A stretch of DNA of 29,262 bases, from positions 1 through 29,262 of IMG/VR virus record IMGVR_UViG_3300032053_007180; one strand, given 5' to 3'. How positions within the stretch are numbered: the first letter of the stretch is position 1; the number at the start of each line of letters is the position of its first letter. Source of the stretch: a virus. The position numbers were made by a program, and so were the translations under genes. Below, one piece after another: positions 13,619 through 28,208 of this stretch. Below the pieces are notes generated by a model. That model was given only the letters and a program-made list of their open reading frames with translations, was not told the origin of the DNA and made no database searches.

Positions 13619-14107
13619 ATGGCAGATTTACTAATGAAGATGCCGGTTCCTTATGAACCGAAAAGAAAGAATAGATTTATTCTAAGATTCCCATCGAGTT
13701 TAGGTATCAATGAATGGTATGTATTCTCAGCAACAAGACCAAGTGCAAAAATTAATCCTGTGGAAATTCAATTCCTAAATACATCAACATATGTTGCTGG
13801 AAGATTTACATGGGAAGAATTAAAAGTACAATTTAAAGACCCAATAGGTCCGTCTGCGTCACAAGCCCTAATGGAATGGTTCCGTCTACATGCGGAAAGC
13901 GTTACAGGTAGAATGGGATACGCTGCTGGGTATAAGAAAGATGTTGAATTAGAAATGCTCGACCCAACGGGCGTTGTAGTTGAAAAATGGATTCTTCAAG
14001 GTACTTTCTTATCAACTCTCAATTTTGGAGATTTGGACTATGGAAGAGACGATTTAGCAACTATTGATGCTACCTTGCGCATGGATCGTTGTATACAGGT
14101 GTATTAG
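13619..14107 (+). CDS. Tail tube protein (T4 gp19-like)
   Basis: 162 residues, against 163 for T4 gp19; polymerises into the inner tube through which DNA passes. Seen: an N-terminal RKNRFILRFPSSLGI strand, W.VFSATRPSAKINPVEIQFLN, the ELKVQFKDPIGPSAS..L..W loop, ETV/ESVTGRMGYAAGYKK, and a C-terminal LSTLNFGDLDYGRDDLATI, all in the order typical of gp19 proteins. It is flanked by terminators on both sides, giving a one-gene transcript suited to a protein needed in high copy number. Codon use is slightly less A+T-biased than its neighbours, as expected for a highly expressed structural gene. Confidence 0.96.
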   Translation: MADLLMKMPVPYEPKRKNRFILRFPSSLGINEWYVFSATRPSAKINPVEIQFLNTSTYVAGRFTWEELKVQFKDPIGPSASQALMEWFRLHAESVTGRMGYAAGYKKDVELEMLDPTGVVVEKWILQGTFLSTLNFGDLDYGRDDLATIDATLRMDRCIQVY

Positions 14108-14172: not shown

Positions 14173-14212
14173 AAATTTCCATATATTTTTATACATATAT
14201 GGAAATTTTTTT
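14173..14212 (+). terminator. Intrinsic terminator after the tube gene
   Basis: A 14-bp stem (14173-14186 with 14195-14208, core TTTCCATATAT/ATATATGGAAA) around an 8-nt loop. The 3' arm runs into seven T residues (14206-14212). It lies 66 nt after the tube stop. Confidence 0.9.
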
Positions 14213-14218
14213 GTATAA

Positions 14219-14241: not shown

Positions 14242-14994
14242 ATGGAAGAATTTAAAATTGACCCTTCAATAGCGTATGATATTGTTGAGTTACCAAGTAA
14301 GGGAATTATGTATCAAAACAACAAAAAATCAGTTAGAGTGGCTTATTTAACCGCAGCGGATGAAAATATTTTAGCATCACCAAATCTAGCATCTACCGGA
14401 GGTGTCGTTATGGAACTATTAAGAAGAAAAATATTAGATAAAGATCTATTAGTTGAGGATATTGTAGAAGAAGATAAACAAGCAATATTAATTTTTTTAA
14501 GAAACACTTCTTTTGGATCTGAATATAATATGACAGTAACAGACCCCAAAACCAGAGAAAAATTTGAAACAGTTATAGATTTATCTCGTCTTAAAATAAA
14601 AGATTTTTCGTTGGTTGCGGACGCAAATGGTGAATATCCATATTATCTCAAAAAGAGCGGAATTGATATTACTTTTAAATATTTAACGCAAAAACAGGAG
14701 ACAGAACTTAAAAAGATAGAAGAAAGTTGGAATGGAGTTGGCCCAGCACCTATAGTAACAAAAAGACTCGAAATGATGATTAAATCTCTTGGAGGAAATA
14801 GAGACATTATGCAAATACATAATTTTATTGAAAGTAAAATGCCAATTACGGATTCTCAAGATTTTAGAAAATATTCGATTGAAAATAAGCCAGGAGTTGA
14901 TTTATCACAGAAAGTAACCACCCCATCAGGAGAAGATATCCAAGTTGAGATTGGGTTCGGGGTGGAGTTTTTTCGTCCTTTCTACGGAATATAG
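14242..14994 (+). CDS. T4 gp26-like baseplate/tail-assembly protein (zero-frame product)
   Basis: 250 residues. N-terminal VELPSKGIMYQNNKKSVRVAYLTAADENIL, then VVMELLRRKILDKDLLVEDIVEEDKQAILIFLRNTSFGSEY and a DLSRLKIKDF segment match the T4 gp26-type baseplate family. The Cys pair I expect in some relatives is absent (TDPKTREKF). It ends GFGVEFFRPFYGI; an FFxP end is, as I recall, usual in this family. It lies between tube and tape measure, the standard place for tail-assembly chaperones. The run TTTTTTC at 14968-14974 is followed by an open +1 frame, so a longer product is likely (next entry). A distant role as hub-assembly factor or tail chaperone is inferred. Confidence 0.72.
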   Translation: MEEFKIDPSIAYDIVELPSKGIMYQNNKKSVRVAYLTAADENILASPNLASTGGVVMELLRRKILDKDLLVEDIVEEDKQAILIFLRNTSFGSEYNMTVTDPKTREKFETVIDLSRLKIKDFSLVADANGEYPYYLKKSGIDITFKYLTQKQETELKKIEESWNGVGPAPIVTKRLEMMIKSLGGNRDIMQIHNFIESKMPITDSQDFRKYSIENKPGVDLSQKVTTPSGEDIQVEIGFGVEFFRPFYGI

Positions 14995-15124
14995 GGAGAG
15001 TCAATTAAAAGAAATTTTATATTTAATTAAACAGGGATTTTCTTATGGAGACATTCTTGTAATGCCTATTTTTGTAAGAAGATATTATATGACATACATA
15101 AGTGAATTGAAAAGTAAAGAATAA
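14242..15124 (+). CDS. gp26-gp51-like fusion made by predicted +1 (or -2) frameshift at TTTTTTC
   Basis: Zero frame through the second TTT (14971-14973), then +1 from GTC at 14975 to TAA at 15122-15124: 244 + 49 = 293 residues. The +1 frame reads VLSTEYRESQLKEILYLIKQ, then GFSYGDILVMPIFVRRYYMT and a short charged end. It has no ATG before 15059, so it cannot readily start alone. The G-F-(S/T)-Y-.-D-.-.-.-MP-.-.-R pattern is typical of gp51-like and tail-chaperone C-terminal parts. Slippage of tRNA-Phe from UUU to UUC, with a CGT codon waiting, is a good +1 site. Xu, Hendrix and Duda showed that frameshifting at this tube/tape-measure position is widespread in long-tailed phages. A sequencing indel in the T run is the alternative. 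Confidence 0.6.
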
Positions 15125-15139: not shown

Positions 15140-17128
15140 ATGGCAGGTATTACTTCTAAATTAATAGACATTGCAAAGGGAGGAAAATCTAATTGGGGAA
15201 AATTTCTTTCTGAATGGACGAGTGGTATAGATCGACACGATACTCAATTATATGAGGCAGAAACAAGAAATGCTCGAGCAGCTTTTAATGCTTTATCAGC
15301 TGAAGAAAAGGGGGACACCGCAGCCCAGGGCTTATTAAAACCGCCAAGTGTGGGAACAGGAGGATTTATCAGTAAGTCAATGGCTGCTCAGTATGCCCCA
15401 TCAACAATGAATTTACCAGAATTTGGAACGATAGAAGGAGGAAAAGATATTATTGGGGGGCTTGTTGATATATTTTCAGGAAGAGCGGCTATGGGTTTTA
15501 AAAAATTAGTAGGTATTCTTGAAAACGAGGTTCTTATATATCTAACACAAACCAACAAGCTTTTTCGAGAGATTAATGAAAAAGCTATGATGACAGGGGA
15601 ACTTGCAGGCGCGTTTAGAGAAGAAATTATGGATGCGTCTCCTTGGGCAACAAAATTGGGTATAGGATTTGAAGAATTTGCGGAATCTGTTGGAAATCTA
15701 GTTGCCGAATCAGGAAAGTTTAAATTACTTAATGAAGATACAATGAAAGAAATGGCTTTGGCAAGTAAATTTACCAAAGATATGTCAACTTTTGTTGCAA
15801 TGGGAAAAGATTTTGAAAGAATTGGATTGGGTGTTAAAGATATGTCTAGTTTAATTGAAAAAATGTCAATGAGATCTCTAGCTCTTGGGTTAAATGGAAA
15901 AACAACAGTGGCTATGGTTGCTGAAAATTTAAAAAAGATTAATCAATATGGTTTTAAAGATGGCGTAGATGGTTTAGCTAAAATGGCCCAAAAATCGGTA
16001 GAATTCAGAATGAACATGAAAAATGTGTTCGATTTGGCCGAAAAAGTCTGGAGTCCAGATAAAGCACTTGATATTGTTGCAAATTTACAGGTTATTGGTG
16101 GAGCATTTGGAGATTTAAATGATCCAATTAAATTAATGTATATGGCAACAAATAATGTTGAGGGATTACAGGGTGCAATAATTGGAGCAACAAAATCATT
16201 AGTAACATATAATGAAGAACAAGGTAGGTTTCAGGTAACTGGAGTTCAACTTAGAATGGCAAAAGCTATGGCTGACGAATTTGGTATGAGTTTAGAGGAG
16301 TTAAGCGATGTTGCAATTGCGCAGGCAGAACGAACTGAAGCCGCCTATGATTTATCAGGATTAAACTTTAATATACCAGAAAAAGAGATAGAATTTTTAA
16401 CTAACCTAGCTCGAATGGAGGGTGGGAAAATGATTATCGATATTCCAAAGACACTGCGAGATGATTTAAATATGGGTGTTGGCGAAACTCAGTTAGCACT
16501 AGATAGTATGACAGAATTTCAAAAAGAAACAATTTTAAGTCAACAAGACGCTTTTGAAAAAATGGATCCAAAAGATATACCAAGGCAACAAGTTATGGCT
16601 CTCGAAAACATCCAAAGAGATATGTCTGCATTAAGAGGATATATGAGAATTACAGTTGGCCAAAATGCTGCAGATTTAGTAGAGAAAGCTTTAGGAGTAA
16701 ATGGTGAATTTGTTGGAAAATTATCTGATGCCGTTTCAAAACTAGGAATGACAGGAGTTGGAGAATTGGATAAATATGCAAAAGAGGCAATTAAACAATT
16801 TGATGGGCTTGTAAATATTGGAGAAGGCGTAGGAGCAGATATGATTAATGGTATTAATAATTTAAATGAAAAGTGGAGTAAATCGTCAGAAGAAAAACAA
16901 AAAGGAGAAATAAATACAGGCGCCAAGTCAATGAGTTTTGCAGAAGCAGAAAAATTAGGACGTTCAGAAAAAGTAACATCAGCAGCACCCACAGTTGAAA
17001 GAAAAATTATTGATGTAAATATTAATCCTATGGCAGCATCAATGGATCGAATTGCACAAATATTTTGGGGAGATGCAAGATGGCAGGACGATTTTAAGAA
17101 TAGTTTTATAAATCCAAATTCAAATTAA
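15140..17128 (+). CDS. Tail tape measure protein (probable)
   Basis: 662 residues, mostly alpha-helical, with a hydrophobic Gly/Ala-rich patch near residues 103-135 (GGKDIIGGLVDIFSGRAAMG). Long helical stretches rich in Met, Ala and Lys follow (MKEMALASKFTKDMSTFVAM, then KDMSSLIEKMSMRSLALGL and AKMAQKSVEFRMNMKNVFDL). The size is near that of T4 gp29 (590 residues) and would fit a tail of about 100 nm using the usual 1.5 angstrom per residue rule. It follows the predicted chaperone directly, the standard gene order for tape measures. No lysozyme or peptidase domain is visible. The function rests on position, length and helicity. Confidence 0.75.
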   Translation: MAGITSKLIDIAKGGKSNWGKFLSEWTSGIDRHDTQLYEAETRNARAAFNALSAEEKGDTAAQGLLKPPSVGTGGFISKSMAAQYAPSTMNLPEFGTIEGGKDIIGGLVDIFSGRAAMGFKKLVGILENEVLIYLTQTNKLFREINEKAMMTGELAGAFREEIMDASPWATKLGIGFEEFAESVGNLVAESGKFKLLNEDTMKEMALASKFTKDMSTFVAMGKDFERIGLGVKDMSSLIEKMSMRSLALGLNGKTTVAMVAENLKKINQYGFKDGVDGLAKMAQKSVEFRMNMKNVFDLAEKVWSPDKALDIVANLQVIGGAFGDLNDPIKLMYMATNNVEGLQGAIIGATKSLVTYNEEQGRFQVTGVQLRMAKAMADEFGMSLEELSDVAIAQAERTEAAYDLSGLNFNIPEKEIEFLTNLARMEGGKMIIDIPKTLRDDLNMGVGETQLALDSMTEFQKETILSQQDAFEKMDPKDIPRQQVMALENIQRDMSALRGYMRITVGQNAADLVEKALGVNGEFVGKLSDAVSKLGMTGVGELDKYAKEAIKQFDGLVNIGEGVGADMINGINNLNEKWSKSSEEKQKGEINTGAKSMSFAEAEKLGRSEKVTSAAPTVERKIIDVNINPMAASMDRIAQIFWGDARWQDDFKNSFINPNSN

Positions 17129-17171: not shown

Positions 17172-20100
17172 ATGCCAAGCTATGTAGATTTTAATGCTAG
17201 TAAGCGTTTCAGGGATTTTGTTTTAACTAAGACATTAAAAGCCCCAAATGGACCTCAAACATTTAATGCAAGTAATTATAGTGTTAGTAATTTAAACACA
17301 TTTGCCAATACTGATCCTGGAGATGTTGAGGATACTCGTTCTCCTGAATTATTAAGATCTCAGAGTATAAATACTTTTAAACCAATAGAATATTTTGTAA
17401 ATGAAAATCTTAATACTTTTGCAAGAAGGGCAAATCTTTCTTTATATCCATATTTTGTAGGACAAACGCACAATTTAATTGGTATAATGAATGCTGCCGA
17501 TTATGAAAATGAGTCAGAATTAATGAAATTTGCCTCATGGTACATAAGAGAAGCTGAAAATGGCCCATTTTATTCAAGATTACAACAAAATTTGTATACA
17601 ACAACATATGGTAGGCTTAGAATACTTGATGCATTAGAGGGTAATACAACAACAGCAATAAATATATTAACAGGTAGGGAGCCTTTAATTGAAAGTAATC
17701 CACGAATTACGGTTGCAGGTAAATTACTTGGAAAGGGTATTGACTTTTTACAGACGGTAGCTGGTGTTGAATTTCCATGGGCTGAAATTCCTGGCGATTA
17801 TTTATCCAATCCACGCAATCCAGTTGGTGATGGAAATGTTAGACTAAATAATCAAAATCTAGGAGAGGCACTTAATTCAGCGGTCGGAATATTTAGAAGA
17901 CCAACTACAACAAAAAAGCCATCCGATTTGTTTATTGAATATATGGGTCAAAGACAAAGAACAACATTATTTGATAATCTTTCGTATTCAAAATATGCCC
18001 CCAACTATACAACAACTGCAAGATCACAAAGCACATCGAAAATATTAAATTTTGTTAATAGAACAGCGCAATCAGTAAAGAATTTATTAGGTGTTGAGGC
18101 GCCAGAGGGAGTTGCATACATTGGTGACGATAGAGGTAATGATGTTAAAAATGCAATGAACATTGATGATAGACCTGTAAAAAGTAATTATTATCTTTCT
18201 TTAATGTTCGATCCCGCACAAGCAGTATTATTTCAAAGGACTAAAAATGTTATTGATGGCGGAGGTGTTGCAGGCAAATTAACATGGATTAGTACAAAAT
18301 CAAAAAATTTATTAGATAATACAAAAACATATGTTGGAATATCAACAGACAAAGGGGAATCAACTGAATCATATGTAAGAACACACGGCATATCACAATA
18401 TGACGATTCGTTATCAACAAAACATAGTTTCAAAGACGGTTCAATTTTAGGATTAACACAAGAAATACTTGAATCAATGCCAAATAATGGTGGGGAGGCA
18501 CGATCTCATGTTGCTAATGTTATTGATCAAACAAGTAGAATTTTTAGAGAGGGTGACACTATGTTATCAAGGGGATCTGCTATAAAATATATTGATCAAT
18601 ATAACGGACAAGAGAGAGGTGTTGAATATTGTAGAGTTTGGACAAAAGATCTTTCTTATATGAATTATTCAGATACAATGAAGAAATCTGGTAATTATAG
18701 GAAATTTGAAAGTAGTGTTTTAACAAACGCATGGAATTTAAATATATATCCCAATTCAAACGCAAAGGGTGAATTTGATGCCAGCTCATCTAATATGGCG
18801 CAAAGAGAAGGAGGATTTTTTGCTAAAAAATATATGTTTTCAATAGAAAATCTCGCATGGAAAGCATCTAATACGCCTGGATTTACATATACAGATTTAC
18901 CTTATTGTGAAAGAGGTCCAAATGGTGGTAGAGTTATGTGGTTTCCACCGTATGATTTAAAAGTTTCAGAACAAAACAATGCAAAATGGGAAGAAAATTT
19001 CTTTTTAGGTAGACCCGAACCAATTTATACATATAATAACACATCTAGAAGTGGTCAAGTGTCATTTAAAGTTATTGTAGATCACCCAAGTATATTAAAT
19101 CTTTTAGTAAAAAAACATTTTGAAGGTATGTCGGATGCAGAAGCTGATAATTATATTAATGCATTTTTTGCTGGATGTCAGGATGTTGATTTTTATGGAT
19201 TAATAAGAAAATATACAACATTAACACCTGATGAAGTTAAGGCGCTTATGGCATATTTAAATCAAAATAAAGATTCACAGGTTGTAACAAAAAATAAATC
19301 GGTACTTATTGATCCAGTTTCAGATACGCCAGTTCCAAAAAACGCGCCATCGCTACCAGGATTTAATATAGATTTTTATTTTCAAAATGCGATGCCGCCA
19401 ATAGCTTGGGGACAAACTAATAGTATGGTGGCGTCAGATCCAACATTATATACTAATGACAATTGTACTGGCTTATATAGTGAACATTCAGATAATAAAT
19501 CTTTAATTTTTGAAGATTTAAATTTGGGATTGTATAATTTAAGATCAGGTACTACTTGGGGATTGCCACAAATTAATGATTATAAGGTATTAATGGGAGT
19601 TGAAAAGAAAATCAAATCGGAAATAGATTTTGATGCAATGGATGCCTATGTAAATAGTGAATTAAATAAGTGTTTTGACAGAATGACAAGTGAGTATAAT
19701 AACTATGCATCAAATATTAATACATTAAGAGATTTATTAAAAAACGGAGAAATTAAAGAAATAAATATTCGAGTAGGATCGAGTGCAAGCTCTCCCGACG
19801 ATGCAAATGATAATTTGAGACTATCTTTTCGTAGAAGTTTTAGTGTTTTAACTGATATTGTATTTAAATTATGTAAGGATTATGAACTACTTCCAGAAGC
19901 AAAGAGGCGTAATTATTATGGTGGTTCTATAAGTATCTATGATAATATAGTTGAAAAATATCTTAAATGGGGAGTAACTGTTACAAATAACGATACAAGA
20001 CTAGTTGTGCCAGGAGTTAAAATTCCACTTAAAGAATTTGGTTATGATACAGATGGAATGTTCATAATAAATCCTACTTTTAATGTTGGAGAAACACGAA

Positions 20101-22094
20101 CAGACAGTCCGTTGAGTCCTATTGCAAATGTAAATTGTTCTGATGCGTTTGCTCTCTTATCCTCAGAGAACCTTCAGAGAACGGCGCCATCCACATTTTA
20201 TTGTAGAAATACTAGCCTTGCTGTTGTATATGAAACAAAAAGTCCTAATGATGAAACAGCAAAAGCTAAGGAAGAAGCTGCTGATCAACCACCAGCATCA
20301 CAACGACAATTAGTTGAGGTCGAGGAATCGCCATCAGGAGTCAAATTGGCACCACCAATTGATGAAATAAAAAAAATGATAATGAAAACATTATCAGAAT
20401 GTTATTATTTTAAAAAACTTGAAGAAGATTCACCATTACAATTTTCATCATTAAAAGAAAAATTAAAATATTTTCATCCCGCATTTCATTCAATGACGCC
20501 TGAAGGATTAAATGCAAGATTAACATTTTTAAATCAATGCATCAGACCTGGGGACACGCTACCAATCAAAGGAATATCAGATGATCGTGATTTAAATGCA
20601 AGAAACACAACATTTGGGCCTCCACCAATATGTATAATGAGAATAGGAGATTTTTATCATTCTAAGATAGTCATTAGGGATGTAAATATAACATTTGATG
20701 AGAATATTTGGGATTTAAATCCCGACGGAATTGGGGTTCAACCAATGATTGCTGAAGTTACTTTACAAATAAGCTTCATTGGTGGACACGGATTAGAAAA
20801 ACCTGTAGAAAGATTACAAAATGCATTGTCTTCTAATTTTTATGCCAATACTGAAATGTACGATCCAAGGTCAAGAGCAACAGAAGACAGAACAGAATTT
20901 TATAAGAAAACGTTTACAAAAGAATTTCTCGATGATTTAAATCGAAGAACAAATCCAATAGGTACAAATTCAAATGATTTATTAACATCAACAGATAATG
21001 TTATTGACGGCCCATATATAGGAAAGCCAACCATATCTAGCTTTCAGACACTGGGATTTGGAATGGGAGCGGTTACCGTTCCGGTTTATGGAACATTAGA
21101 CTATGCATCAGTAGTTGAAGATGTTTTTTATAATACTCAATATTATACTAGTACATTTATGACGACATATAATATGGCATTTACTTCATATGACGCAAAA
21201 TTGGCAAGCATGATATTATCACCAACATATAGAACCATAAAAGATTATAATGTTCAAATAGGAGCAAGTACAACCACAATCGAATTGTTAGGTAATTATC
21301 CTACGCGCACCGAATTAGAAACATTATCATTAAATTTTAGAAATGTAATATCAGGTAAAACACAAACGGAAAATATTACCACATTGATGACTATTAGTAA
21401 TGATATGACGCCATCTGTAATTACAAGATCGGAAGAATTATTAAAGCCATATGTTACAACAACCATTGTGGGTATAATTGATAATATACCAAGTAGCACG
21501 ACATATTTGAAAACTGTTGAAACAAGACGAAATGAGCTTATTAGAGCATTAGATAAGTTAAATTTTATTGTTGAATATGGGTATGATGGTAAAATAGAAA
21601 AAAATGTTTATACTGGCGCCAATTTTACAGGATTTTCTGCCAGCATATTTTATGGAAATTATAGTAATGCAATAACATTTATTCAACAAAATTACACTAA
21701 GTTTACAGAGGATTTAGATGAAACATACAATTTTTATGGAGCCACAATGACATCAGAGGATTTAACATATTTTCTAAAAGTGTTGTTAAGAGATAAGAAG
21801 CAAGAAATTTTGGCTTTATATAAAAAGGATACAATTTTTACCACAAATATATTACGAAATATTGAAAAAAGACTAGATAAATTTTTAGCAACAACCCCAG
21901 AAAGTAAAGATTTTGGAATAACTAAGTACCCAACAAGAAAAGACGGTAATGCTATTGCATTCGGTACAACTACCGAATTTCCAATTACTAATCCAACAGT
22001 AATCGAAAATTTAACGAATGTGCATAGAACAAGAGGTAATAAAACCACGGCTGTACTAAATTATCATAGGCCAGTTACTGGTACAGGAGGATAA
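17172..22094 (+). CDS. Giant baseplate protein 1 (tube-initiator/hub-like domains)
   Basis: 1640 residues. Two stretches look like conserved core. Residues about 585-645 hold RVMWFPPYDLKVSE, NFFLGRPEPIYTYNNTSRSG and VSFKVIVDHPS, a beta pattern like tail-tube-type domains of baseplate initiators. Residues about 1150-1220 hold PPPICIMRIGDFYHSKIVIRDV, then WDLNPDGIGVQPMIAEVTL and ISFIGG, resembling hub or gp54/LysM-linked tail domains. Near residue 1080 there is a charged, Pro-rich linker (KAKEEAADQPPASQRQ). The repeat motif FQTLGFGMGAVTVP is at residues 1291-1304. It lies downstream of the tape measure and 14 bp before the gp53-like gene, in the position of T4 genes 48/54. Membership in the baseplate is fairly safe; the exact counterpart is not. 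Confidence 0.7.
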   Translation: MPSYVDFNASKRFRDFVLTKTLKAPNGPQTFNASNYSVSNLNTFANTDPGDVEDTRSPELLRSQSINTFKPIEYFVNENLNTFARRANLSLYPYFVGQTHNLIGIMNAADYENESELMKFASWYIREAENGPFYSRLQQNLYTTTYGRLRILDALEGNTTTAINILTGREPLIESNPRITVAGKLLGKGIDFLQTVAGVEFPWAEIPGDYLSNPRNPVGDGNVRLNNQNLGEALNSAVGIFRRPTTTKKPSDLFIEYMGQRQRTTLFDNLSYSKYAPNYTTTARSQSTSKILNFVNRTAQSVKNLLGVEAPEGVAYIGDDRGNDVKNAMNIDDRPVKSNYYLSLMFDPAQAVLFQRTKNVIDGGGVAGKLTWISTKSKNLLDNTKTYVGISTDKGESTESYVRTHGISQYDDSLSTKHSFKDGSILGLTQEILESMPNNGGEARSHVANVIDQTSRIFREGDTMLSRGSAIKYIDQYNGQERGVEYCRVWTKDLSYMNYSDTMKKSGNYRKFESSVLTNAWNLNIYPNSNAKGEFDASSSNMAQREGGFFAKKYMFSIENLAWKASNTPGFTYTDLPYCERGPNGGRVMWFPPYDLKVSEQNNAKWEENFFLGRPEPIYTYNNTSRSGQVSFKVIVDHPSILNLLVKKHFEGMSDAEADNYINAFFAGCQDVDFYGLIRKYTTLTPDEVKALMAYLNQNKDSQVVTKNKSVLIDPVSDTPVPKNAPSLPGFNIDFYFQNAMPPIAWGQTNSMVASDPTLYTNDNCTGLYSEHSDNKSLIFEDLNLGLYNLRSGTTWGLPQINDYKVLMGVEKKIKSEIDFDAMDAYVNSELNKCFDRMTSEYNNYASNINTLRDLLKNGEIKEINIRVGSSASSPDDANDNLRLSFRRSFSVLTDIVFKLCKDYELLPEAKRRNYYGGSISIYDNIVEKYLKWGVTVTNNDTRLVVPGVKIPLKEFGYDTDGMFIINPTFNVGETRTDSPLSPIANVNCSDAFALLSSENLQRTAPSTFYCRNTSLAVVYETKSPNDETAKAKEEAADQPPASQRQLVEVEESPSGVKLAPPIDEIKKMIMKTLSECYYFKKLEEDSPLQFSSLKEKLKYFHPAFHSMTPEGLNARLTFLNQCIRPGDTLPIKGISDDRDLNARNTTFGPPPICIMRIGDFYHSKIVIRDVNITFDENIWDLNPDGIGVQPMIAEVTLQISFIGGHGLEKPVERLQNALSSNFYANTEMYDPRSRATEDRTEFYKKTFTKEFLDDLNRRTNPIGTNSNDLLTSTDNVIDGPYIGKPTISSFQTLGFGMGAVTVPVYGTLDYASVVEDVFYNTQYYTSTFMTTYNMAFTSYDAKLASMILSPTYRTIKDYNVQIGASTTTIELLGNYPTRTELETLSLNFRNVISGKTQTENITTLMTISNDMTPSVITRSEELLKPYVTTTIVGIIDNIPSSTTYLKTVETRRNELIRALDKLNFIVEYGYDGKIEKNVYTGANFTGFSASIFYGNYSNAITFIQQNYTKFTEDLDETYNFYGATMTSEDLTYFLKVLLRDKKQEILALYKKDTIFTTNILRNIEKRLDKFLATTPESKDFGITKYPTRKDGNAIAFGTTTEFPITNPTVIENLTNVHRTRGNKTTAVLNYHRPVTGTGG
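21041..21082 (+). repeat. In-frame dispersed repeat, copy A
   Basis: 42-bp core from CTTTCAGACA to ACCGTTCC, encoding FQTLGFGMGAVTVP. By hand alignment it differs from copy C at 5 of 42 positions. The inverted arms GGAATGG (21060-21066) and CCGTTCC (21076-21082) are identical to those in the other copies. Confidence 0.85.
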
Positions 22095-22108: not shown

Positions 22109-22432
22109 ATGAACAATCAATATTTTGACAGATATCAATATTTTATAAATGAGGGCGATTTTAAAATCGTTCCAGGAATTGAAATACCAATCAAATCAAC
22201 TGATAGATATATTCAATTTAGACGCAATAAAGATAGATTAGATAAATTATCACAGGAATATTATAATTCTCCTTTATTTGGATGGATAATATTACAGGCA
22301 AATCCAATTGTTGGCGGTGTTGAATTTGCAATACCTGATAATTTTTTACTTAGAATACCGTTTCCTCTTATTCCATCTTTACAAGATTATAAAAAAAGCA
22401 TAGAATTGTACAAACTATATTATGGGGAATAA
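22109..22432 (+). CDS. Baseplate wedge protein, T4 gp53-like (LysM-like)
   Basis: 107 residues. The layout YF..YQYFINEGDFKIVPGI, then DRYIQFRRNKDRLDKLSQEYYNSPLFGWIILQANPI, then FAIPDNFLLRIPFPLIPSL is typical of gp53 wedge proteins. The central part, with a rapid Leu-Leu-YY-WIIL.AN progression and a final LRIP, is the LysM-like fold used there. gp53 joins wedges around the hub during baseplate assembly. The gene begins 14 bp after one giant baseplate gene and overlaps the next by 11 bp, so the three are probably translated together. No Shine-Dalgarno; the leader is A+T-rich. Confidence 0.78.
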   Translation: MNNQYFDRYQYFINEGDFKIVPGIEIPIKSTDRYIQFRRNKDRLDKLSQEYYNSPLFGWIILQANPIVGGVEFAIPDNFLLRIPFPLIPSLQDYKKSIELYKLYYGE

Positions 22433-25400
22433 TAATTTAAAAACAACAAATGATATTTTAGTCAAGGTTGATCATAATAATCTCATATATCTTGATCCTA
22501 ATAGTGTATTGGTTAATGGCATTGTTGAGCCAAGAGCAGTCGAACCCGAAAATTTGGTTATGTATGTTAATTTGGAGGCGGATTTAATTCCTCGCTCAAC
22601 TTTAATTGCTAATGATGCTCAAAGTACTTTAATATCAGTGGCCGAAGGAACATTAAATTTTATGAAAAATGCAGATGGTACAGATTACGATACTAAATGG
22701 ACAGATACATATACAAATAAAACCCCTAATATATCTGGCTTTCAGACATACGGATTTGGAATGGGCGCGATTACCGTTCCAACCATCAATGGATTTGTTA
22801 CAAATGACACATCAGCACAAAGCTTTGGAATTGATAATATATCGATAAAAGTTATGGGAGCAAATTTTATACCTAGGGTGGATATAAAATTTATTGATGT
22901 TCGAGGAAAGACATTATTTGAATCTCCAGCAAATTCTCCATATGCCGCATTTTTTCATATACCATGGCCAATATTTTATTTAACAGTTAAAGGATATTAT
23001 GGAAAGGCAATAAAATATAGGCTACATATGATTAAATTTAATTCAAAATATAATTCCAGTAATGGTAATTTTGAGATCGAATGTAATTTTGTTGGTTCGA
23101 CATATGCATATTTAGCTGATATATCATTAGAATCGGTATTAAATGCTCCATATTTTTATTTGTCAGAATCAAGTGAAGATGCAAAATATAACGAAAAAAC
23201 CGAACAATATGAAAAAATAGTTTTTAAAACAACAAAAGGATATAGGGTTTTAAGATCAGTCTATCAGGAATATATTAATAAAGGATATTTACCAAAAGAT
23301 TTTCCAGTAAGAACTCTTCGAGAAGTTATTGTTCTTGCGGGTAGATTAAGTAAAATATTAGAATTTAAAATCTTTTCACAATTTATCAGTCATCATACAT
23401 TAGCGGCAATTAAAGAATATGAAGATACTGTTACTACATTCAGAAAAAATATTGATATATGGTCGAACAAATACAAATCGGGATCAAGTCGAATATTACC
23501 AGATGTCCTACAACGACCAAATCCTACTAGTCCAGGAAGTATGGAAGATGTAATATGGTATACATTAAATCAAAACGATAAAAGTAGCACTAAACCAATA
23601 GAAATACTTACAAATCACGTAAATTCCGCAGTAGGAAAAATGGAAAGTAACGAGGCTTTTGGTATTAATGCAGGAAAAAATGATGATAAAATTACAACCA
23701 ATACCATATCATGTGCCGAATTAAAAAACATAAACACATATTATAGAACAATTACAGAAATTGATGGAAATATTATTGTGGTTGATATTGATGGAATAAT
23801 AGACCAAATTGACACTATTTTTAGAAATTATAAAGAACAGAGGAATAAAGTAGAATTGGAAGTTGAAAAAATAATGAATGACGTTATTGAAGACAAAAAA
23901 GAAATTGGAATTGGATTTAAACCATCAGTTAGAAATCTTGTGGCTATACTTCTTGCTAACGCCGAGACATATATTAGATTAATGAAAGAGGTTCATGAAA
24001 AAGCGTTTGATAAAGCAGAAGAAAGAAAAAAAATATTTGAAGAAAACACTGTAAAATCATCAGGAATATTTAGAGATGGCGGTAATACGATTTTTCCTTG
24101 GCCAGAAGTTAAATTATCGTCACAAAAAGGTAAAGAAATGGTTTTAGTATATCCAGGTAGTAGGGAAATGGAACAGAAATTAAGATCGAATGATAAAAAT
24201 TTATGGCCAGAAGTTGATTTTGTTGAAAATTTTTACGGAATTGCGCTTAAAATCAAAGATAATCTTGAATCAAAAGAAGGTAGTGTTGATAATGTTCAGT
24301 ATATTTTTGGCGATTCAGTTAATGACACTAAGAAAGATATAAGTGTACTCACAAACATGATGAATTATATTCCATATACTAATAAATCAATAGCATCAAT
24401 TTTATATGAAATATATGAAAGGGCAAAATACACAACATCATTAAGTCCTTTTGATACTCCTTCAATACGCGAGTTAGCAGATGTTGAATATTCGAATTTA
24501 AAAAATCAAATTGCTGGCGATGTTGATGTTGTTGACACATTAAAGAGAAATGTTACATCTTATTTATCATTAATTTCACAGATGGAGTCAATTACAACAA
24601 AATACCCATATTATTTAGATCAAATACCAACAACAGATTATATAGCAGATGGTCTTGAACATGATTTTAGTATTTCGAAATATACTCCATTAACAAGCAC
24701 AATAGGTAATGCTAATGATTATTTAAAACTATCAAATTTTTTAAAAAACTATAAACCCGAAGAATATAGAAAAGACATATATCCTTTTAATTCGCCGACA
24801 TATCTTTCTTCTTTAAGCGCAACAAGTACAAGTGTGAATAATTTACAGTTAAACAGTATGTTAAAAGTTAATCCGCCAAATGATTTTATTTCTTCTCCTT
24901 TAAATTCTGTGATGTGGATTAAAGATGGATTTATAACAAATATGTTTACGAACACAATTAAAATAAATGGTATTAATAAACACATTTTAAATACTCCTTA
25001 TTTTCATAAACAATTGTATGACGATTTTATTAAAATTCCGCCACTCGAAAAATATGTTGGATCGGCATATCTACTCTTGAATTCATTACCATATAAGGAT
25101 TTAGATGATGTTGTTAGCTCGAATACTACCTTTCAGACATATGGATTTGGAATGGGAGCAATTACCGTTCCAACCATCAATGGATCTGTTACAAACGATA
25201 AATCAACAATAATATCAAGTATTTTTAGAGAAATTGGTGCAACGCATTATATTCCATATCATTTAATGTTAAAATGGGGATCAATATATCATCGATATAA
25301 AAAATATATAAATGACGGAATTGATATTATTGGAGGTATCACCGACAGAATTGATGGTGAGTTATTTTTTGATAATAATAATGGTTTAACATTTAACACA

Positions 25401-28208
25401 ATACTGGATATTAATACTGGAATTGTTAAAACAGTAAATATAACCGATCAATCAGACATTGGATTTCATCCATATTATGAAACTGTTTTTCATCAAATTG
25501 CCAATGGATATGGATTTTTAAATATTGATTCACAAGTCGACAATTATTCGGAGGGATTATCAAGCGGACTCGTTAAATTACATAATGGAAGCGCCATTGG
25601 AATGAATACATGGACAAGTTTGGTAGATCAATCAAAATTTGATACAAATGATCAAAGATATGTGTTATTGCCAACTAATGGGGTTAATATGATTATTGGA
25701 GATGATTTTACATTATCAGAACAAGAAAACTTTAGAATTCTTTGGAGTATAGGAACAGACTATACTGATAATATTGATTACACAGGATATACCTTCCCAA
25801 CATATAAAGAATATTTAAAAACAACAACAAATGAATTTTCATTATCAACAAATTATAAAAAAGTTATTGATTTGATTGCAACATTTAAGCCCGAAATATT
25901 GGAGTCATTTGAATTGGCGTTTTTAGATTTTTCTGCCGAAAAATTAAATGAGGCCGAAACATATAAGCCATATGAAGCGACATACACTAAATTTCAAGAT
26001 TTATTAAAGGCAATTACTTCAGTTAAAAAAGATACGAATGATCCCACAAATAATTTTGATTTTTATAATACAATTAAAAACAAACAAACATCGGAATTAA
26101 TTAATATAACCACAACACTTAAATCCAAGGATAACATGATAAAATTAACATTGGCAAATCCAAGGGAAACCAATGATTATGTATTTGGAGGATTTACAAA
26201 AATAGATGTTGAACATTTTTCAATTGATCCATATGATCCAACTCAACTTAGTGCAAATCTGGGTAATATTGAACTTTATTTAGGGGAAGATATGGATGGA
26301 TATTATAGCAATTTCTTTTCCGTAAATGATGTTGCATTAAATGAGGACAACATTAAACAATTTAGGCCATTAATTTATATGTATGCAGGACAGAGAGCCA
26401 AAGGAAAAAATCCAACAAAATTGGAATTTATTGAATATTTGAAAAAAAATGTTATGGAACCGCCGATGAATGAGACAACTAAAGTAAAATCCCCGCCAGA
26501 AAGATTAATAGATTTTTTAGATGAAATAACTTTTAAAATACGAGACGATCTTAAAGCAGAAACACAGGGTCAACAAATATCTGGAATATATAGGGGACGG
26601 AACGATGACCCAACTCTTAAACTAGAATTATATAATTATTTTAAATCATTTAATGATAAATGGACAGCAGGAAATTCTATAGGACAAAGAACATTAATAG
26701 AAGAGTTTTTATTTTTAGATAGAGCAAATAAAGATATCGGTGACGAAGTATATCTTAGTCTTGACAAAATGTTAAGACTTGGAATGAAAGAAAACGCAAA
26801 AATTAATTTGTATAGCGCAATTTCTTTATTAATACAAGATACTGGATTTGATATTAGAGCATTACCAGCATATATTAATTTTTATGGAACAAATGTTTCT
26901 AATGCAGCAAAAATCATACCCTCTAAAGATGTTGCAAGAAATATGTTTGGTTCTTTTTTGGATGTTGATTATCAAGAAGCATCCCCAAAAATTATATTAC
27001 AATATGTTGGGCCCAGCTCGCGACATCCAGAAATGTCAGACATTAGTAAAAGGAAATATCTATTTGAAAACGATGGATTTGATATTAGTAATGTAAATAA
27101 TAATCCTGTTATTGTTTCTCCTAATATTTTTACAACAATAGATTTTACTAAATCAAATAAAGTGGTAGCATTTGAAGTGAGTTTTGGAGATCAAAATCAA
27201 TCTATTTTTAAAACGGTAGAATTAGACCAATCAACAATAAGAAACACATCAGAATCTTTTTATGTTTTAGAGAATTTAGGAAGAAGTGAAGGTGGTGATA
27301 GTGTTGCTCAGGTTGATATTGGATTATGGAATATATACAGACAAGCATCATATCAATGTACTGTAACTTGTATGGGTAATGTAATGATACAACCGACAAT
27401 GTATTTTTATTTAAAAAATGTTCCGTTGTTTAGAGGTTCATACTGGATTACTGAAGTGACGCATAATATTAAATCAACAGGTATTGAGACATCATTTAAA
27501 GGCTCAAGAATTCCACAACGAGCATTACCTGATCTTAAAGACACATTTATAATGGCATATCGACCATTATTTGATAAAGTCATAAAAGACGCAATTCGTA
27601 AGGTTAAAGATGAAAGTAAAACATCAACAACTACTGAGCAAACAACTGTAACTAATTCAGGAGCATATTCTACCGATACTGGTGGTAAAAGATTTACAAC
27701 TGAAGAACAAATACATAAACAATCTGTAGAGGAATATGGTATACCATATAATGGATTTGATGATGAACCAAATATAGAAAAAGTTAAATATAAAGGACAA
27801 GAATGGTTACGAGCAAAAGCCATTGAAATGGGTAATAGTAAATATCCAATACCTGATAATCGTACCATGGGTATTATTTCAAGAACAAGGTTAGCTCCAG
27901 ATATAAAATGGGGTGACATTAAGAATTTAAAAAGTGATTTTTATGAAACTAAGTTTAATCCGAAAAGATTACCAAATGAAGATGCTAATATTTTTACAGA
28001 CAAATATACAACAACCGAATTTTTAAATCCTGAAAATAGTAAATCTTTGCGTGTAACAACAGTTGTTAATCATTATGTCAAAGCATATCAAGGTCCAGTA
28101 AGTATTGGACCCGCGATTACTGGATATGGCATCGGAATGTCACATTCGTTAATGACGAAATTAGGATTATACGATGGCGCGATAGTGTTTTTTAGATTAA
28201 CACAATAA
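22422..28208 (+). CDS. Giant baseplate protein 2 (hub-like C-terminal region)
   Basis: 1928 residues, one of the longest virion proteins expected in a phage of this type. Residues about 155-208 (IKFIDVRGKTLFES, SPYAAFFHIPWPIFYLTVKG, YYGKAIKY) and about 928-970 (SSIFREIGATHYIPYH, LKWGSIYHRYKKYINDG) look strongly constrained. Near residues 1652-1698, GNVMIQPTMYFYLKNVPLF, GSYWITEVTHNI and TSFKGSRIP follow the pattern of hub proteins related to T4 gp27 or Mu gp44. A charged, helical stretch lies at about 470-545. Repeat copies B and C encode FQTYGFGMGAITVPTING at residues 107 and 904. The start overlaps the gp53-like gene by 11 bp, so translational coupling is likely. A combined wedge and hub scaffold is an inference. 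Confidence 0.7.
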   Translation: MGNNNLKTTNDILVKVDHNNLIYLDPNSVLVNGIVEPRAVEPENLVMYVNLEADLIPRSTLIANDAQSTLISVAEGTLNFMKNADGTDYDTKWTDTYTNKTPNISGFQTYGFGMGAITVPTINGFVTNDTSAQSFGIDNISIKVMGANFIPRVDIKFIDVRGKTLFESPANSPYAAFFHIPWPIFYLTVKGYYGKAIKYRLHMIKFNSKYNSSNGNFEIECNFVGSTYAYLADISLESVLNAPYFYLSESSEDAKYNEKTEQYEKIVFKTTKGYRVLRSVYQEYINKGYLPKDFPVRTLREVIVLAGRLSKILEFKIFSQFISHHTLAAIKEYEDTVTTFRKNIDIWSNKYKSGSSRILPDVLQRPNPTSPGSMEDVIWYTLNQNDKSSTKPIEILTNHVNSAVGKMESNEAFGINAGKNDDKITTNTISCAELKNINTYYRTITEIDGNIIVVDIDGIIDQIDTIFRNYKEQRNKVELEVEKIMNDVIEDKKEIGIGFKPSVRNLVAILLANAETYIRLMKEVHEKAFDKAEERKKIFEENTVKSSGIFRDGGNTIFPWPEVKLSSQKGKEMVLVYPGSREMEQKLRSNDKNLWPEVDFVENFYGIALKIKDNLESKEGSVDNVQYIFGDSVNDTKKDISVLTNMMNYIPYTNKSIASILYEIYERAKYTTSLSPFDTPSIRELADVEYSNLKNQIAGDVDVVDTLKRNVTSYLSLISQMESITTKYPYYLDQIPTTDYIADGLEHDFSISKYTPLTSTIGNANDYLKLSNFLKNYKPEEYRKDIYPFNSPTYLSSLSATSTSVNNLQLNSMLKVNPPNDFISSPLNSVMWIKDGFITNMFTNTIKINGINKHILNTPYFHKQLYDDFIKIPPLEKYVGSAYLLLNSLPYKDLDDVVSSNTTFQTYGFGMGAITVPTINGSVTNDKSTIISSIFREIGATHYIPYHLMLKWGSIYHRYKKYINDGIDIIGGITDRIDGELFFDNNNGLTFNTILDINTGIVKTVNITDQSDIGFHPYYETVFHQIANGYGFLNIDSQVDNYSEGLSSGLVKLHNGSAIGMNTWTSLVDQSKFDTNDQRYVLLPTNGVNMIIGDDFTLSEQENFRILWSIGTDYTDNIDYTGYTFPTYKEYLKTTTNEFSLSTNYKKVIDLIATFKPEILESFELAFLDFSAEKLNEAETYKPYEATYTKFQDLLKAITSVKKDTNDPTNNFDFYNTIKNKQTSELINITTTLKSKDNMIKLTLANPRETNDYVFGGFTKIDVEHFSIDPYDPTQLSANLGNIELYLGEDMDGYYSNFFSVNDVALNEDNIKQFRPLIYMYAGQRAKGKNPTKLEFIEYLKKNVMEPPMNETTKVKSPPERLIDFLDEITFKIRDDLKAETQGQQISGIYRGRNDDPTLKLELYNYFKSFNDKWTAGNSIGQRTLIEEFLFLDRANKDIGDEVYLSLDKMLRLGMKENAKINLYSAISLLIQDTGFDIRALPAYINFYGTNVSNAAKIIPSKDVARNMFGSFLDVDYQEASPKIILQYVGPSSRHPEMSDISKRKYLFENDGFDISNVNNNPVIVSPNIFTTIDFTKSNKVVAFEVSFGDQNQSIFKTVELDQSTIRNTSESFYVLENLGRSEGGDSVAQVDIGLWNIYRQASYQCTVTCMGNVMIQPTMYFYLKNVPLFRGSYWITEVTHNIKSTGIETSFKGSRIPQRALPDLKDTFIMAYRPLFDKVIKDAIRKVKDESKTSTTTEQTTVTNSGAYSTDTGGKRFTTEEQIHKQSVEEYGIPYNGFDDEPNIEKVKYKGQEWLRAKAIEMGNSKYPIPDNRTMGIISRTRLAPDIKWGDIKNLKSDFYETKFNPKRLPNEDANIFTDKYTTTEFLNPENSKSLRVTTVVNHYVKAYQGPVSIGPAITGYGIGMSHSLMTKLGLYDGAIVFFRLTQ
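22739..22814 (+). repeat. In-frame dispersed repeat, copy B (extended)
   Basis: 76 bp, 69 of which match copy C in a hand alignment. The first 42 bp are the core shared with copy A. It encodes FQTYGFGMGAITVPTING followed by FVTNDTS. Confidence 0.88.
25130..25205 (+). repeat. In-frame dispersed repeat, copy C (extended)
   Basis: 76 bp, matching copy B at 69 positions. It encodes FQTYGFGMGAITVPTING followed by SVTNDKS. The same inverted arms GGAATGG and CCGTTCC are present. Confidence 0.88.

Follow-up and report, generated by a model that had tools for sequence, protein, structure and literature searches.

A gp26-like gene in a viral DNA sequence of 29,262 nucleotides (IMG/VR record IMGVR_UViG_3300032053_007180, the whole of which is called the window) is followed by an open stretch of codons in the +1 frame that begins inside a TTT TTT C run near the end of the gene. 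The locus raises the question of whether the gene and this stretch encode two parts of one protein, and what that protein does. The evidence points to a G/GT-type TAC-N/TAC-NC tail assembly chaperone of a T4-type contractile phage, predicted to be made by a programmed +1 frameshift at UUU_Y, and we place the probability of this reading at roughly 0.87.

Results

Organization of the locus

All features of the locus are on the plus strand. The gene 5' of the chaperone gene (13619-14107) encodes a gp19-like tail tube protein that matches the tail tube family phrog_4542 in a profile search (E = 1.4e-25) and PF06841 at E = 3.5e-4, a match under the curated cut-off of that family. The 0-frame gene (14242-14994) encodes the putative short tail assembly chaperone TAC-N, a gp26-like protein of 250 residues that matches phrog_150 (E = 2.8e-10) and PF12322 (E = 4e-8), the latter with 33.6 bits against a curated cut-off of 24.5, which it passes. 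The 3' neighbor of the chaperone gene (15140-17128) is a probable tape measure gene assigned by position only, and a search with Pfam and phrog profiles found no family match for its product. A tape measure is annotated right after the equivalent frameshift locus in Flavobacterium phage immuto and Bacillus phage SP-15, and the order tube, chaperone, tape measure is seen in both phages. The tube/chaperone intergenic region of the window holds a terminator-like hairpin (14173-14213) with a 14-bp perfect inverted repeat, an 8-nt loop and a following T run. A terminator is annotated at the corresponding position in the SP-15 record.

The gp26-like gene ends in GTG GAG TTT TTT CGT CCT TTC TAC GGA ATA TAG. 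The slip site TTT TTT C occupies 14968-14974, with the T run at 14968-14973 and C14974 as the base that would be skipped. The +1-frame extension (14975-15124) consists of 49 codons (14975-15121) and a TAA stop at 15122-15124, as the original prediction had read it; its pN/pS and profile matches mark it as the gp51-like TAC-C part and not a separate gene. When TTTC is read as a single Phe step, the computed fusion has 293 residues and the junction VEFFVLSTEYR, identical to the product that had been foreseen.

Two other features of the window were recorded outside the locus. Three copies of a 50-79 nt coding segment (about SGFQTYGFGMGAITVPTINGFVTND), 82-90% identical in DNA, lie at 21033-21082, 22731-22817 and 25122-25208 within the large genes 17172-22094 and 22422-28208, and the segment seems to have been copied or moved recently. 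An ORF of leucine-rich-like tandem repeats (CTALTTISLPALTTAGNYCFYY) at 1-1249 runs off the contig start and could encode a host-binding or surface protein.

Conservation of the +1 frame

A scan of viral contigs gave 28 loci of the window clade, and 26 of these plus the window supplied 27 sequences that span the site. In the alignment of relatives that the original prediction had proposed, all 27 sequences keep the +1 frame open over 48-50 codons, the 0-frame stop lies 6-7 codons 3' of the slip codon in each, and TTY TTT followed by C is present in all 27 loci. Substitution and codon statistics were calculated from 17 non-redundant members. Past the 0-frame stop, the +1 frame has pN = 0.248 and pS = 0.676 (pN/pS = 0.367), and the remaining two frames have pN/pS values of 0.94 and 1.48 and about 3.5 stops each.

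More distant relatives were collected by tblastn (named phages) and by scans with immuto and Microcystis phage Mel-JY01 (sister groups). All readable loci have an open +1 join, 79 of 79 in the immuto group and 78 of 78 in the Mel-JY01 group, and all carry the conserved +1 tail FFGL...YR; three Mel-JY01-group loci have a longer +2 frame, and in these the conserved tail is carried by the +1 frame. The sites of the named phages are TTT CTT TGG CCT in immuto, TTT TTT TGG in Mel-JY01 and Rhodothermus phage RM378, TTT TTT CAC in SP-15 and TTC TTT CGT in phage SagM-GXN1 (labelled Streptococcus), and the +1 frame opens from the same FF point in all five. Judged from these alignments, the pattern of open +1 frames in the window clade and the two sister groups is far beyond chance. 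The extension is annotated in the named-phage records at most as a fragment or as a separate ORF; the long product is thus absent or cut short in current annotation. When bacterial genomes were scanned in search of the host, no relative turned up.

The slip site and a candidate stimulator

Every site in the window clade and the sister groups has a UUU codon followed by a pyrimidine (C or U), an arrangement in which re-pairing in the +1 frame works. Among the 95 conserved degenerate codon columns of the gene, nine are codon-invariant in the window clade; the last eleven codons hold five of these (GGG240, TTT244, CCT246, TTC247 and GGA249). CCT246, TTC247 and GGA249 sit where both frames may be read. 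GGG240 is invariant in 17 of 17 non-redundant relatives compared with 19 of 187 Gly codons elsewhere in the gene, and it lies 5' of the shift, in a part read in the 0 frame alone; the constraint on this codon therefore suggests a signal. Arg245, the A-site codon, is CGN in 16 of 16 relatives and in 16 of 133 cases elsewhere in the gene; CGN makes up 79 of the 326 Arg codons of the window and is thus uncommon without being very rare. The sole other in-frame TTY TTT C among the window genes examined is TTT TTT CAT at codon 177 of 22422-28208.

The invariant GGG codon belongs to an SD-like element, GGGGTGGAG (14959-14967), which is a candidate stimulator 5' of the slip codon. The consensus GGGGYGGAR pairs with the anti-SD 4-6 nt 5' of the slip codon, and the duplex is among the best 0-2.4% of gene positions in every relative when calculated with the E. 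coli anti-SD, which may not be that of the host. The Mel-JY01 group has not retained the GGGG element, which is therefore not essential everywhere. Downstream RNA structure, assessed over 60 nt, gave no signal (z from -0.9 to 1.2).

Other routes into the +1 frame

The original prediction held that the extension has no usable start codon. The window alone does not prove this because its +1 frame contains two TTG codons, 8 and 10 codons 5' of the extension; this part of the claim stands on relatives L017, L019 and L021, which have a +1-frame TAG just 5' of the slip site. A separate overlapping gene, translated from an internal TTG, ATG or near-cognate start or by translational coupling, would agree with the +1-frame TTG found shortly upstream in many loci (the window included), with the annotation of such an ORF in the Mel-JY01 record and with an ATG at extension codon 4 in L010, L011, L019 and L020. 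However, that ATG is replaced by ACG in most relatives, the first ATG, GTG or TTG of L017 is extension codon 30 of 49, and 19 of 58 distinct Mel-JY01-group sites and 5 of 42 distinct immuto-group sites lack a start codon as far as 18 nt beyond the 0-frame stop. These observations make an independently started gene quite improbable. The LR756511 locus, with an ATG of its own and the other frame, was left unassigned. Slippage of RNA polymerase on the T run would give mixed mRNAs that encode the fusion, and the six T's of the window and seven at many sister sites are suited to it, but L020 and 39 of 79 immuto-group loci keep the frame relation with no T run longer than three, and we regard this explanation as very improbable. 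A ribosomal -2 shift, as in phage Mu, leads to the same frame as +1 and had been left as an option in the original prediction. TTTTTT in the window permits re-pairing at -2, but re-pairing is impossible at TTC TTT in L020 and at TTT CTT or TTT CTA in the 39 immuto-group loci. The -2 shift is rejected because of these sites and retains hardly any probability.

Relationship to T4 gp26 and gp51

T4 gp26 and gp51 each match PF12322 over their full length, and gp51 adds a C-terminal extension. The phrog_150 profile spans both parts, T4 gp51 matching 3-281 and T4 gp26 matching 10-236. The two are separate genes in T4, RB43 and CP220. Judged by these matches, T4 gp26 (short) and gp51 (long) are paralogues that differ by the same C-terminal extension. 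The tails of the window clade match the +1 tails of the immuto and Mel-JY01 relatives in profile comparison (98%), the sister-group tails match the cyanophage tails (93%) and the cyanophage tails match the T4 gp51 C-terminus (95%). Direct comparisons of the window tail with cyanophage tails and of sister tails with gp51 are weak, and the homology of the window extension to the gp51 C-terminus is established indirectly, by this chain of profile matches through the sister group and the cyanophage tails. The window profile gave no significant match to a narrow gp51 alignment, so the link between the window and gp51 is carried by the Pfam and phrog profiles.

In a sister clade of cyanophages, a pelagiphage, KVP40 and Aeh1, the homologous tail follows UUUUUUY in the -1 frame. 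The second part of phrog_150 is matched in the -1 frame in S-PM2, P-SSM2, HTVC008M, Cr30 and phiM12, and reading the sequences of KVP40 and phiW-14 reveals the same -1 arrangement; UUUUUUY lies at or just 5' of the stop in all seven. The site in 80 of 80 cyanophage-like contigs is TTT TTC followed by one codon and the stop, with the -1 frame open. Many cyanophage-like loci have an ATG at the junction, so translational coupling is possible there, and 19 of 52 distinct cyanophage-like sites have no start up to 18 nt past the stop. Aeromonas phage Aeh1 (locus L353, 118700-119900), which was reported to lack gp51 (PMC3037559), has a gp51-type tail in the -1 frame behind GAT TTT TTC GAC TGA, and a search for a start codon at this junction found none.

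The +1 rows cluster together in a 64-row tree with long deep branches and an arbitrary root, as do almost all -1 rows, and KVP40 is placed beside the T4 paralogues with weak support. The tree requires 4 changes of frameshift mode compared with 23 in shuffles. We consider it likely that a homologous recoding site switched direction, so that one deep clade shifts -1 at UUUUUUY and the other shifts +1 at UUU_Y with a sense codon next, and that gene duplication replaced the shift in the T4-like coliphages. The +1 form would then be a widespread bacterial programmed shift without a stop codon in the A site.

Chaperone or baseplate hub component

The AlphaFold2 model of the 0-frame product is of good quality (pLDDT 86.7). 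After realignment, the PDB entry closest to it is 2ob9, the HK97 tail assembly chaperone, with Z = 5.1, which is in the range of a common arrangement, and the next match has Z = 2.7; Foldseek alone gives the HK97 chaperone a probability of 0.08, which is not significant, and on its own the HK97 match is weak. A model of a gp51 relative gave no tail chaperone match among structures. The viral models that match the 0-frame model belong to the same family with the baseplate name. The frameshift could be real and its products parts of the baseplate hub rather than tail chaperones, as the baseplate names of PF12322 and phrog_150 and a proposal of T4 gp26 as a hub component (PMC3004832) would have it. 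The same source, however, counts gp26 and gp51 among the hub assembly chaperones and describes gp51 as absent from the final particle (PMC3004832), and the position between tube and tape measure together with the short/long pair fits the chaperone pattern. We judge the hub assignment unlikely and the tail assembly chaperone the better description of the locus.

Discussion

The comparative evidence (site, frame and missing starts) strongly supports two products, the long one arising by a programmed +1 frameshift near the 3' end of the gene. The gp26/gp51 assignment of the original prediction gains support from PF12322, phrog_150 and the chain of tail profiles, its +1 shift at TTTTTTC agrees with the conserved frame and the comparison of sites, and its G/GT analogy fits the upstream tube gene and the short/long pair. 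The slip itself, its efficiency, its stimulator and the chaperone function are predictions from sequence. In the proposed mechanism, most ribosomes would terminate at 14992 and release the short chaperone TAC-N. A fraction would slip +1 with the P-site tRNA-Phe on UUU (14971-14973) and CGT waiting in the A site; the tRNA would re-pair with UUC, one base would be skipped and reading would continue in the +1 frame to 15124 to give the 293-residue TAC-NC. The SD-like GGGGYGGAR just 5' probably assists the slip, as in prfB. As in lambda G/GT, the tape measure would be coated by many copies of the short form and few of the long one, and these would recruit tube subunits.

Xu, Hendrix and Duda reportedly described a conserved tail frameshift in dsDNA tailed phages in 2004. 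Vladimirov, Gautam and Davidson are said to have identified T4-type tail chaperone genes in 2022, under a title that proposes a mechanism other than frameshifting. Judged by that title, T4-type chaperone genes are already published and are not new here. A passage in a 2025 paper gives Vladimirov et al. as the source for T4-like TAC-N genes with poly-T -1 signals (PMC12846349). A limited literature search turned up no description of a +1 shift in the gp26/gp51 chaperone family. A 2016 recoding review describes G-T tail frameshifting as conserved in long-tailed phages "except T4" (PMC5009743), and the 2010 comparison by Sullivan et al. left unexplained why cyanophage gp51 lacks the first ~200 residues (PMC3037559). 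Both observations would be accounted for if the T4 superfamily has a short/long chaperone pair made in three ways, by a +1 shift, by a -1 shift or from two genes. The locus would also supply a naturally occurring, abundant +1 signal that acts at a sense codon, and cultured phages, immuto and SP-15 among them, would allow it to be tested.

The locus resembles lambda G/GT in having an abundant short product (as predicted) and a frameshifted long one, in lying between tube and tape measure genes and in the position of the shift near the 3' end. Lambda shifts -1, the direction that is usual for G/GT but not a strict requirement, whereas the net shift is +1 in the window clade and its sisters. T4 gp26 and gp51 share the family PF12322, the short and long forms and the homologous C-terminal extension, but T4 has two separate paralogous genes where the window has one gene and a +1 shift. 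The gp26 and short "gp51" of the cyanophages, pelagiphage, KVP40 and Aeh1 are a homologous pair with the same FF shift position and differ in a -1-frame tail that follows UUUUUUY, with a junction ATG in some members. The chaperone of Pakpunavirus phage Adele is likewise a programmed frameshift assigned on comparative evidence with a poly-T site at the end of TAC-N, but the Adele shift is -1 at GTTTTT (PMC12846349). The haloarchaeal myovirus HSTV-2, in a passage of the 2016 review, very likely uses +1 rather than -1 and has a contractile tail (via PMC5009743); unlike the window phage, it is an archaeal virus. Bacterial prfB provides the parallel for a +1 slip in which the P-site tRNA moves along a pyrimidine run that follows an SD-like element (PMC12421855), with CUU before a UGA stop in prfB and UUU before a sense codon (CGN or UGG) here.
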